Shown here one piece after another: positions 33,106 through 36,668 of a stretch of DNA of 54,338 nucleotides. The stretch spans positions 1-54,338 of the IMG/VR virus record IMGVR_UViG_3300021062_000018, one strand, 5' to 3'. How positions within the stretch are numbered: the first letter of the stretch is position 1; the number at the start of each line of letters is the position of its first letter. The notes under the pieces are model-generated. The model did no database searches and was not told where the DNA came from. It was given only the letters and a program-made list of their open reading frames with translations. Source of the DNA: a virus. The position numbers and the translations under genes are program-made.

Positions 33106-34032
33106 ATGTCGATCCCACGGGAACAACGCACGAGCCGCTCACGACCTTGCCCCGCATGCGGCAAGGCCGGCTGGTGCTACTTCCTCGCCGACGGGACCGC
33201 CTACTGGTGCGGCCGCATGGCGGGCGGGCGGCCGTGGAAGGGCGGCTGGATCCACAAGCTCGAGGGGGCGACGCCGATCGCGGCGCCGCGGCCGACGCCG
33301 CGGCCGCAGAAGGTCGACCGCTCCGCCCTGGCCCGCCTGGCGAGGGACTGCCGGCTGGCCGTCGCCGACCGCCAGCTCAGCGCGCTGGCCCGGGCGCTGT
33401 GCCCGCGGGCCGACGCGATCGTCGGGTACGCCGGCGGGCTGATCCGCCTGGGCACCGGCTGGCTGACCGCCGATGCGGCCGCCGCGCACGACACCGCCTG
33501 TCACGCCGACGGGCTCTGGACGTTCCCGATGTCCGCCGGCGCGCTGCTGGGTAACGGGCACACCGACGTCGTCGGGATCCGTGTCCGCTCGCACGCCGGC
33601 AAGAAGTATTCGGTCACCGGCTCCGACGGGTCCGCCCTCTTCCTCCCGAGCGGCCTCCCCCGCCGCTCCCAACTGGTCCTGCCCGAGGGGCCGACCAGCT
33701 GCGCGGCGCTGCTGGCCGCAGGGTTCGCCGCGGTTGGCCGGCCGAACAACCGGCTCGGCGCCGAGCACCTCCGGCGCCTGTGCAGGGACCTGCGGCCCAG
33801 CCGTCTGGTCGTCCTCGGCGACAACGACGAGAAGGCGGACGGCCGGTGGCCCGGGCTCGAGGGGGCGGAGGAGGTGGCGACGGCACTCGCCGGGGCGGCG
33901 GCCCGCGTCGACGTGGTCCTTCCGCCCCCGGGCGTGAAGGACGCCCGGGACTGGCTCGTGAGGGACGGGCCCGCCGGGTTCCGCGACGGGCTCGTCGAGG
34001 CGATCGAGGCGGCGGCGATGGCGACGGCGTGA
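33106..34032 (+). CDS. DNA primase (zinc-binding/TOPRIM)
   Basis: The 308-residue protein has an N-terminal zinc ribbon (CPACGKAGWCYFLADGTAYW, then CGRMAGG) for template recognition, and a TOPRIM-type catalytic region: VLPEGPTSCAALLAAG near residue 197, LVVLGDNDEKADGRWPGLEG near 240 and VKDARDWLVRDG near 280, where the E and D-x-D metal ligands sit. It synthesises RNA primers for phage replication. The ATG is ten bases after ssb. It is shorter than DnaG because it lacks the helicase-binding domain; the neighbouring helicase is a separate gene. Confidence 0.85.
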   Translation: MSIPREQRTSRSRPCPACGKAGWCYFLADGTAYWCGRMAGGRPWKGGWIHKLEGATPIAAPRPTPRPQKVDRSALARLARDCRLAVADRQLSALARALCPRADAIVGYAGGLIRLGTGWLTADAAAAHDTACHADGLWTFPMSAGALLGNGHTDVVGIRVRSHAGKKYSVTGSDGSALFLPSGLPRRSQLVLPEGPTSCAALLAAGFAAVGRPNNRLGAEHLRRLCRDLRPSRLVVLGDNDEKADGRWPGLEGAEEVATALAGAAARVDVVLPPPGVKDARDWLVRDGPAGFRDGLVEAIEAAAMATA

Positions 34033-34055
34033 CGGACGCGGGGACGGGAGACGGC

Positions 34056-35714
34056 ATGGAAGACAACGGACCGACCAACTTCGAGCCGGCAGACCCCGCC
34101 GACGCCCCGAGCGCGACGCTGCCGGACACGCGGCCGTACACGCTGGCGGCGGCGTACCTCCGGGCGCGGGGGCTCGGCGAGGTCCACGAGTGCAAGGACG
34201 CCCGCGGGTTCGAGATGCTGCGCTTCGTGCGGCCGACCCGGCTCCGGCACTGGCGCGAGGAGTTCTACGAGTTCCAGTCGTGCGTCTACCGCCGCCGGCT
34301 GCTCGAGCAGCTGCTGAGCGACCTGACGCTCTTCCTGAACAACCAGTGGCACTTCAAAGCGGGGAATGAGCGGGTGCCGCTGCGGGTGACCGGGAGCACG
34401 GTGAACGACGTCGTCCGCCAGCTCCGGGCGCTGTGCCAGGCGGACGTCGAGGCGATGCCCGAGTGGCTCGACGGCGAGGCCGGTGACGACCGCCCGGACC
34501 CGCACCACGTGATCGCGTTCGAGGACGGGCTGCTCGACTACCGCGCGTGGCTCGACGACCCGGCGGTGCCGCTGCAGAAGCCGACCCCGGACTGGTTCAG
34601 CGTGGCGGTCCTGCCGCGGCCGTACCAGCCGGTCGCCGAGTGCCCGAAGATCCTCGGGTTCCTCAGGCAGTCGATCGGCGAGGAGCAGATGCCCGTCCTG
34701 CAGGAGTGGGCGGGGTACCTGCTGACCCGGGAGACGCGGCTCCAAAAGATGATGTGGCTGCACGGCGTCGGCGGCGGCGGCAAGGGGACGATCCTCCGCC
34801 TGCTGACCGAGCTGGTCGGCCCGGTGAATGCGGTCAGCTTCCGGCTCTCGGACCTGTGCGAGCGGTTCACCCTGTCGAGCTTCCTTGGCAAGACGTCCGC
34901 GATGAGCGGCGAGACGCTGCTCGGCCGGAGCGACGCGCACCGGATCGTCGAGCACCTGCTGGCGATCGTGGGCGAGGACGACCGGAATATCGACCGCAAG
35001 AACCGCGAGCTGCTCGCCAGCGTCCGGCTCGGGACCCGCCTGACGCTCGCGGCCAATCGGTTCCCGAAGCTCCCGGACGCCGGGATCGCCATGAAGCGGC
35101 GGTCGCTCGTGATCAGCTTCGAGCGGACGTTCGCGTCGAACCCGGACCCGGACCTGTTCGACAAGCTCCGCGCCGAGATGCCCGGCTTCACCGCCTGGGC
35201 GATGGCCGGCCTCCGGCGCCTGTGGGCGAACGGCTGGCGGTTCAGCCAGACCGAGCGAGGGATCGATCTGCTCGAGCGGTTCAGCCGCCAGTCGTCGCCG
35301 GTGAAGGCGTTCGTCGAGGAGTGCCTCGAGGTATTCGCCTACGAGCTCGACGCGGACGGCCGGCAGAAGGAGCGGCCGCGGGAGCTGAAGCGGCACGTGT
35401 ACGAGCTGTGGAAGTGGTGGCAGGGCCGGAACGGCCACGAGCAGATGGCCCTGAACACGTTCTCGGAGCAGCTGTACGAGGCGACCCTGAGCCTGGTGAA
35501 GCCGGGCCGGCCGTGGGTGGAGACCGGCGGCAAGAAGCGAAGGTCCCACACGTTCGACGGGGTCTCGATCCTGTCGAACTACCGCGCGTACATCCCGACG
35601 AACGAGGTCGACGAGACGCCCGACGAGCGGGACGAGCTGCGGGCGCTGGCGGCGGTGGCGAACGGGCACGACCCGGCCGCCCTCGCCCCGGTGCTGCCCT
35701 TCGAAACCAGATGA
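34056..35714 (+). CDS. D5-type (SF3) replicative helicase
   Basis: The 552-residue protein has the D5/P4-type layout: an N-terminal domain of about 220 residues and an SF3 AAA+ ATPase with Walker A GVGGGGKGT near residue 238 and DERFTLSSFLGKT- and TLAANRFPKLPDAG-like motifs after it. The C-terminal PriCT/winged region ends WWQGRNGHEQMALNTFSEQL. Such helicases load at phage origins carrying iterons. A GTG at 34029 overlapping the primase stop is an alternative start; the ATG has GGGAG five bases upstream. It is immediately followed by an iteron array. Confidence 0.85.
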   Translation: MEDNGPTNFEPADPADAPSATLPDTRPYTLAAAYLRARGLGEVHECKDARGFEMLRFVRPTRLRHWREEFYEFQSCVYRRRLLEQLLSDLTLFLNNQWHFKAGNERVPLRVTGSTVNDVVRQLRALCQADVEAMPEWLDGEAGDDRPDPHHVIAFEDGLLDYRAWLDDPAVPLQKPTPDWFSVAVLPRPYQPVAECPKILGFLRQSIGEEQMPVLQEWAGYLLTRETRLQKMMWLHGVGGGGKGTILRLLTELVGPVNAVSFRLSDLCERFTLSSFLGKTSAMSGETLLGRSDAHRIVEHLLAIVGEDDRNIDRKNRELLASVRLGTRLTLAANRFPKLPDAGIAMKRRSLVISFERTFASNPDPDLFDKLRAEMPGFTAWAMAGLRRLWANGWRFSQTERGIDLLERFSRQSSPVKAFVEECLEVFAYELDADGRQKERPRELKRHVYELWKWWQGRNGHEQMALNTFSEQLYEATLSLVKPGRPWVETGGKKRRSHTFDGVSILSNYRAYIPTNEVDETPDERDELRALAAVANGHDPAALAPVLPFETR

Positions 35715-35719
35715 CCCGA

Positions 35720-35930
35720 GCCCTGACCGGACCCTGACCAAAAGGACGATGACCCTGACCAAAGCCGAGTAGACCCTGACCAAAGCCGGCGAGCCAAACA
35801 CGTCTGACGGCGTGGAAATGGAAGGTTCGCGCCGAAACAGGCGTTTTGGTCAGGGTCACCAGGGTCAAAAGCTACGAGAGAGAGATTTAAAGAGAGAGAC
35901 AGAGAGAGAAGTAAGGGAGAGCCCTGTCGG
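35720..35930. other. Iteron array and purine tract, probable replication origin
   Basis: CCCTGACC repeats lie at 35721, 35731 (as ACCCTGACCAAAA), 35752 and 35773. The last three start exactly 21 bases apart (two helical turns) and the first 11 bases before (one turn), so all face the same side. TTTTGGTCAGGGT at 35844-35856 is a perfect inverted copy of the second unit. From 35868 follows a purine tract of GAGAGA blocks around ATTTAAAG that could melt. The array lies directly downstream of the helicase gene and includes very short peptides reading (M)TLTKAE, an effect of the repeat. The arrangement is that of a phage or plasmid origin. Confidence 0.72.
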
Positions 35931-35957
35931 CCCTGCCACCATGACCGAAGGAACGCC

Positions 35958-36668
35958 ATGCACTCACACGACCGAACGCTCCTCGCCAAGCTCGGGTTCG
36001 CCGACGCCGACAAGGGGGACCGACGGCACGACCTCGCCTGCCGCTACCTGGCGACGCCGGAGGTCGCGCGAAGGCTGATCGCGAGCATCTACCCCGACAC
36101 GCCGACCGTCGTCGACCTGCACGACGGCCTAGTCGAGCGCGAGGGCCGGAAGCTCTTCAGCATCGAGGACGGACCCCACCATCAGTTGGAGGCGCCCGTG
36201 AGCAAGGGCGAAGGTCAGTACAAGACGACCATCGGGTTCGTCGACCTGCTGCTCCGGTTCAGCGTGGTGGAAGTGTTCGCCGGGCGGCGACGGTGGCGGT
36301 TCGAGCAGGGTTGCGGCCCGGAGAGGTGGTCGGCCTACATGAGCGAGACGCGGATCAAGGAGCTGCCTTGGTCCGATTGGCGAGAGGAGTCGGCGCTCCG
36401 CGAACACCGGCTCCCGTGCCTCCTCGGGGTCGAGGTGAAGATTCGTCCGGTGGGGGTCGGCGAGATCCTCCGCCAGGTCAACCTGTACCGCGAGTACCAG
36501 CCGACGACGACCTGGGTCGCGGCCACCGCCTTCCCCATGACCGCCGCGGACGTCGCCTCTCTACGAGAGCAGAAGGTCCGCCACGCGCTGCTCGGCCGCG
36601 GCTTCGAGGAGTTCGTCCGCCGCACCGACGCAGAGCCTCAAGGCCAGGCCGACAGCGTCGAGCTCTGA
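35958..36668 (+). CDS. PD-(D/E)xK nuclease-like protein
   Basis: The 236-residue protein has GFVDLLLRFSV near residue 95 and LGVEVKIRPVGVGEILRQV near residue 155, the D...E-x-K pattern of restriction-endonuclease-like folds, followed by a helix (NLYREY). It lies beside the origin and may nick or process DNA there, or belong to a family of planctomycete phage proteins of unknown target. ATG start without a strong ribosome site; GGAACGCC precedes it. The C-terminal end is rich in charged residues. Confidence 0.74.
   Translation: MHSHDRTLLAKLGFADADKGDRRHDLACRYLATPEVARRLIASIYPDTPTVVDLHDGLVEREGRKLFSIEDGPHHQLEAPVSKGEGQYKTTIGFVDLLLRFSVVEVFAGRRRWRFEQGCGPERWSAYMSETRIKELPWSDWREESALREHRLPCLLGVEVKIRPVGVGEILRQVNLYREYQPTTTWVAATAFPMTAADVASLREQKVRHALLGRGFEEFVRRTDAEPQGQADSVEL

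Follow-up and report, generated by a model that had tools for sequence, protein, structure and literature searches.

Genomic context of the repeat array

The window, by which the whole stretch of 54,338 nucleotides analysed here is meant, is a viral contig belonging to a temperate tailed phage. Its terminase, portal, protease, major head and tail genes occupy 0.6-12 kb, and further along it encodes a RecT-like protein (22.5 kb), an integrase (30.1 kb) and a D12 methyltransferase (40.7 kb). The nearest helicases found to the one described below are those of Gemmataceae genomes (37 of 95 genomes, best identity 40%), and a planctomycete host is likely. Between the integrase and the primase, an open reading frame (ORF) at 31525-32547 matches a PHROG annotated as cysteine dioxygenase (E 7e-38), which is unusual for a phage replication region. 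The primase, the helicase and the repeats that follow them are arranged as listed below.

33106-34032, + strand: primase gene with a Zn-ribbon-like N-terminus and a Toprim domain (Toprim_3, E 4e-4, under the Pfam cut-off), separate from the helicase
34029-35714, + strand: D5/SF3 helicase, the proposed origin-binding initiator, with Walker A motif GVGGGGKGT (DUF5906, weak Pox_D5, PHROG primases to E 3e-45)
35720-35728, + strand: outer iteron, variant GCCCTGACC
35731-35742, + strand: outer iteron ACCCTGACCAAA
35752-35763, + strand: outer iteron ACCCTGACCAAA
35773-35784, + strand: outer iteron ACCCTGACCAAA
35844-35857, - strand: inverted iteron TTTTGGTCAGGGTC (9-mer GGTCAGGGT at 35848-35856), the left arm beside the core
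35857-35937, no strand: core of 81 nt, 47% AT, with the purine tract GAGAGAGA-TTTAAA-GAGAGAGA; proposed melting region
35938-35946, + strand: putative right-arm iteron ACCATGACC with one mismatch (8/9), assigned on the basis that its distance equals the core gap of the family
35958-36668, + strand: downstream ORF (ORF list and translation) bounding the intergenic region, called a PD-(D/E)xK protein in the earlier note

The primase has matches to PHROG DNA primases (E 4e-9 and 2e-8) and a CPACGKAGWC / YWCGR motif in its translation, and its stop codon overlaps the likely GTG start of the helicase. The downstream ORF at 35958-36668 had no match in Pfam or PHROG.

Sequence of the array and its core

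The three exact + strand copies of the 12-mer ACCCTGACCAAA stand 21 nt apart, just as the earlier note had described them. The partial copy that it placed 11 nt ahead of the first full one is likewise there, in the form of GCCCTGACC starting at 35720, so that the array begins 6 nt past the stop codon of the helicase (35712-35714). A further exact copy lies on the - strand at 35845-35856, and these four are the only ones in the whole 54,338-base record, all within one 230-nt stretch. The inverted copy reported at 35844 is indeed perfect, with a length of 14 nt instead of the 13 originally given: TTTTGGTCAGGGTC at 35844-35857 and the first copy form a perfect pair 100 nt apart. A partial copy in CACCAGGGTCA comes after this inverted iteron, and the GAGA purine tract said to follow it is present as GAGA/ATTTAAA/GAGA.

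When the 247-nt intergenic stretch was shuffled 5000 times by dinucleotides, none of the shuffles had any 12-mer three or more times, against the four occurrences observed, and the 21-nt-period pair ACCCTGACC-N12-ACCCTGACC was found in none of 294 planctomycete genomes. Since the window has a few further sites, all GC-rich, at which a 9-mer is repeated four times within 300 nt, it is length, exactness and context that distinguish the array. Rfam and tRNA scans gave no matches, and searches of papers for the text of the 9-mer returned matches swamped by primers.

From GGTCAGGGT (35848-35856) to ACCATGACC (35938-35946) the gap is 81 nt, and it includes the GAGA-ATTTAAA-GAGA tract. The AT content of the core (47%, in a record of about 28% AT) is matched by 0.56% of the record's 81-nt stretches, and the most purine-rich 48-mer of the record begins within it. 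While the left set of iterons is clear, the right set is a single degenerate copy, spotted after the fact, and taken alone it is weak evidence for the layout. Degenerate GCCCTG pieces lie near it at 35922-35936, and the word ACCATGACC is also present in the arrays of loci L108 and L103, described below. The GC-skew curve, proposed earlier as a check, has no minimum at the array; in this record it says little either way.

The same word beside other helicases

Two DNA patterns holding no protein information were scanned through IMG/VR. On the DNA pattern alone, about 20 loci with dense inverted arrays were recovered, with a D5-type helicase ending just upstream; many matches to ACCCTGACC-N12-ACCCTGACC were coding repeats without a helicase, which were left out as support. 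The strict inverted two-sided pattern was found at 5 loci in 84,980 genomes (one per species), and also in 20 viral contigs. Taking its 27 fixed bases and 31 gap lengths, we estimate that chance alone would give about a thousandth of one locus. The genome loci belong to a Gemmata sp., a deltaproteobacterial MAG, a Lysobacteraceae MAG, an alphaproteobacterial MAG and Gilvimarinus, and an SF3 or VapE-like helicase lies directly upstream of the array in all five. The search for the same unit beside D5 helicases, suggested in the earlier note, was in this way successful, in Gemmata and also in other bacterial groups. In a 9.3-Mb Gemmata genome the tandem 18-mer occurs at one place only. The Gilvimarinus loci (L108:3740-5800 and L103:10695-12760) have a VapE-like helicase, from another SF3 branch, followed by the same GGTCAGGGT arrays. 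At L030:230-560, two ACCCTGACC/GGTCAGGGT array pairs stand about 200 nt apart, with no helicase found in 2.3 kb of sequence. A search of viral contigs with the window helicase as sole query returned no relative, the DNA-motif route being the one that succeeded, and blastn of one array against phages and plasmids gave chance matches only.

A set of 64 loci fetched by protein similarity, some of which are the same contigs as in the DNA scan, contains 209 motif copies in 44.8 kb downstream of the gene, compared to 64 in 464 kb elsewhere; at least four copies of the window's word were present within 700 nt after the gene in 20 of them. When repeats were sought blind to the word, bidirectional repeats downstream of the gene were recovered for 38 of 84 distinct protein-selected helicases, compared to 156 of 3000 random stretches (5%). 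Many relatives without the window's word feature other inverted words at the same position, namely ACCCGGACC, ACCTGTGCC, ACTTGGATC, GCCTGGACG and ACATGTGAC. Gemmataceae words at that position include GGCCCTA, GGCACAGGT, TCCCGCG, TGGACAGG and GTAACGG, and L199 has the window's own word. Such arrays were also found in Acidithiobacillus phage AcaML1 and in a streptococcal satellite phage. In AcaML1 (L303:3544-3700), TCTGACGG/CCGTCAGA repeats and a CGCGCGCGCG core come directly after the D5 helicase gene, and these repeats are likely the unannotated origin of a named phage.

Layout across relatives

The usual layout consists of iterons, a core of about 80 nt and inverted iterons; as many as 13 copies are present, and their order is mixed. 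Most relatives have 75-100 nt, commonly 79-82, between the opposed sets, and the spacing of same-strand iterons is most often 9 nt, followed by 11, 10, 12, 33 and 21. The earlier note had placed all repeats on one face of the helix. This is true of the window; helical phasing is no family rule, since the commonest spacing in relatives is 9 nt, and a strict form of it is ruled out by their spacings. The outer copies of the window are oriented opposite to their counterparts in most relatives. Gemmata L104 resembles the window, with a comparable copy order and a gap of 78 nt by our reading.

Alternating purine-pyrimidine tracts (CGCGCG/CACACG) of up to 32 nt were observed in the cores of L069, L077, L075, L079, L124, L074 and others. 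These alternating CG/CA (Z-like) tracts, present in 16 of 20 examined cores of the L077-like group, are possibly prone to form Z-DNA between the iteron sets; they are absent from the core of the window and therefore not essential. In L082:3366-3560, L039:4982-5173 and L104:3904-4047, the open helicase frame either contains the iterons or overlaps them at its 3' end, and part of the array would therefore be translated.

Helicase fold and base-residue covariation

The structure model of the helicase is a confident one, with a pLDDT of 88.8, and its best PDB fold match is the SaPI5 primase-helicase 7ola (E 8e-17; profile match E 1e-45). An RFX-type winged helix is predicted at the C-terminus, at about residues 442-515 counted from the ATG at 34056 (profile RFX5 E 2e-9, RFX1 E 2e-6). 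Across relatives the C-terminal R-x-R...R...G wing motif is kept while the N-terminal primase modules vary, and the primase parts on helicases beside the window's word comprise Prim-Pol, CHC2-Toprim, DUF3854 and RepB-like ones. The wing residue of the window helicase is H498, and a His is likewise found in L107 and L199, which have the same iteron word; many relatives have Gln or Asn there. In a Gemmataceae genome, a helicase fragment (L199:1402-2454) shares the unusual RPW...H wing of the window together with the word GGTCAGGGTA.

Covariation between iterons and helicases was assessed on 31 helicases of relatives with A or C at iteron base 5, contrasting A and C iterons over 525 alignment columns. 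The best of the 525 columns is the wing position, where 9 of the 11 C-type helicases but none of the 20 A-type ones have Tyr (p 2.7e-6); the other 2 of the 11 have Arg. When labels were permuted through the whole procedure, 1 permutation in 5000 was as good over all columns, corresponding to a family-wise p of about 2e-4. When the helicase tree was computed with the C-terminal part left out, its well supported branches carried at least 7 switches of base 5, and the wing residue follows the base in 6-7 of 7 independent pairs, never in the opposite direction (sign test p 0.016-0.031). Between the L134 and L138 helicases, which are 87% identical, about a dozen iterons go from A to C on both strands together with a change from Gln to Tyr. 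In the arrays themselves (L134:6341-6900 and L138:6341-6900), the same single-base difference recurs in about a dozen iterons with conserved flanks, indicating a concerted change of the array. The wing of RFX proteins enters the DNA major groove (PMC2533330), with which a wing residue reading a base would fit.

Since iteron base 5 covaries with the wing residue in relatives, the helicase is likely the initiator. Two candidates had been put forward earlier, this helicase and the PD-(D/E)xK protein; covariation favours the former, and the latter is unneeded. The PD-(D/E)xK protein was given up as candidate initiator because the word stays with the helicase, with which it covaries, and not with a given downstream gene. 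The repeats are present in the window, and the predicted binding of an initiator to them is supported by covariation drawn entirely from relatives.

A candidate replication origin and its alternatives

The stretch 35,720-35,950 is very probably the phage's iteron-type replication origin, bound by the RFX-like winged helix of the upstream helicase. The reading as an iteron-bound initiator origin, already advanced in the earlier note, is now supported by the presence of the same 9-mer beside distant helicases, the two-sided layout, the homology to SaPI5 and the base-residue covariation. Against it stand the AT content of the core, no higher than 47%, the right arm, which is one degenerate copy, the outer copies, which are reversed relative to most relatives, the GC skew, which lends no support, and the two C-type helicases with Arg in place of Tyr. 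From the repeats, their layout, the gene neighbourhood, the predicted fold, conservation and the covariation of relatives, all read in sequence, we infer binding, melting and replication along the following lines. The helicase encoded just upstream would bind the 9-mer GGTCAGGGT/ACCCTGACC via the RFX-like winged helix at its C-terminus, whose wing would read base 5, in the window an A that would face His498. With copies flanking the AT- and purine-rich core of about 80 nt, helicase rings would be able to assemble, and these may then melt the core and load onto its single strands. The Toprim primase, whose gene lies directly upstream, would prime synthesis, and a host polymerase would take over.

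The repeats are flanked by two genes of the same operon-like run, and autoregulation is frequent among iteron-bound initiators. Both facts would suit operators through which the helicase or another phage regulator controls the operon or the downstream gene, with no origin involved. This is improbable: the repeats come after the helicase gene, overlapping its 3' end in L039 and falling within its frame in L082, and their two-sided arrangement around a core of about 80 nt persists despite different downstream genes. The perfect 14-bp inverted pair, 100 nt apart, could instead suggest that the inverted copies act as a DNA stem-loop recognised by the helicase and not as separate binding sites, as has been proposed for the archaeal plasmid pRN1, in which a stem-loop of about 100 nt, 3' of an AEP-SF3-winged-helix protein, forms the origin (PMC4234260). 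We consider this very unlikely, as the window has three direct copies and one inverted, and the arms of relatives, with their numerous copies in mixed order, lack one-to-one pairing. Iteron-like arrays also serve as partition centromeres, and a packaging, partition or recombination site may have come to lie there by chance. To this, which no result of the analysis favours, we give hardly any credence, as the terminase gene is about 33 kb away, the array comes after the helicase gene whether the locus is of phage, satellite or plasmid-like type, and its sequence covaries with the helicase.

Comparison with known systems

The replication origin proposed here most resembles the Rep-ori module of PICIs and SaPIs (SaPI1, SaPIbov1, SaPI5, EcCICFT073). 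In both, the origin is immediately 3' of the SF3 initiator gene and iterons lie on either side of an AT-rich region, the putative right set of the window being one 8/9 copy; moreover, the window helicase is homologous to SaPI Rep (7ola) and has an RFX-like C-terminal domain. In PICI/SaPI modules, rep together with ori suffices for autonomous replication. In contrast to these modules, the window belongs to a full-size temperate tailed phage, its primase is on a separate gene, its word is GGTCAGGGT and its right arm is degenerate. PICIs are small satellites without full head and packaging genes; since this phage has its own (terminase, portal, protease and major head protein), the element is not a PICI.

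As proposed for the window, satellite phage P4 combines short iterons with an SF3 helicase, the alpha protein, that binds the origin through a winged-helix domain at its C-terminus; unlike the window, P4 has two separated sites (ori and crr) and another iteron word. The winged helix of the alpha protein is also described in PMC4234260. The helicases of SaPI and SCCmec elements use the C-terminal domain to bind iterons that follow their own genes (PMC7581432). SCCmec Cch2 is, like the window helicase, of D5 type with repeats downstream of the gene, and its C-terminal domain binds direct repeats (PMC7581432), but these are three 5-nt AAGTG repeats, whereas the window has 9-nt words on both strands around a core. 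ORF904 of pRN1 shares with the window an SF3 helicase with a winged helix and an origin 3' of the gene; its origin is a stem-loop without iterons, whereas the window has direct iterons. RFX1 and RFX5 have profile similarity over the C-terminal domain of the window helicase, but they are eukaryotic transcription factors with a different DNA word and no helicase. The type of origin proposed for the window is already known from PICIs and SaPIs, while the residue-base code as a general rule is possibly new.

Conclusions

In this study, a probable phage origin was placed from sequence alone. The origin design credited to PICIs is widespread beside the D5 helicases of phages, those of Planctomycetota included. 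This raises the question of whether one wing residue of a D5 helicase sets which base the initiator reads, and of how a dozen iterons change in step. We see an even chance that one origin grammar is common to the D5-type helicases found in phages, satellites and plasmid-like elements of different phyla. In this grammar, two opposed sets of 9-nt words, separated by about 80 nt and located 3' of the gene, would be read through a simple residue-to-base code by a modular, RFX-like wing, and single wing changes would accompany concerted change of all iterons. If so, origin specificity might be predictable from protein sequence, and unrelated elements sharing GGTCAGGGT could fire or titrate each other's origins. 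Should the code hold, the origins of many uncultured phages, satellites and plasmids could become readable from their sequences, and shared words would predict cross-talk between them.
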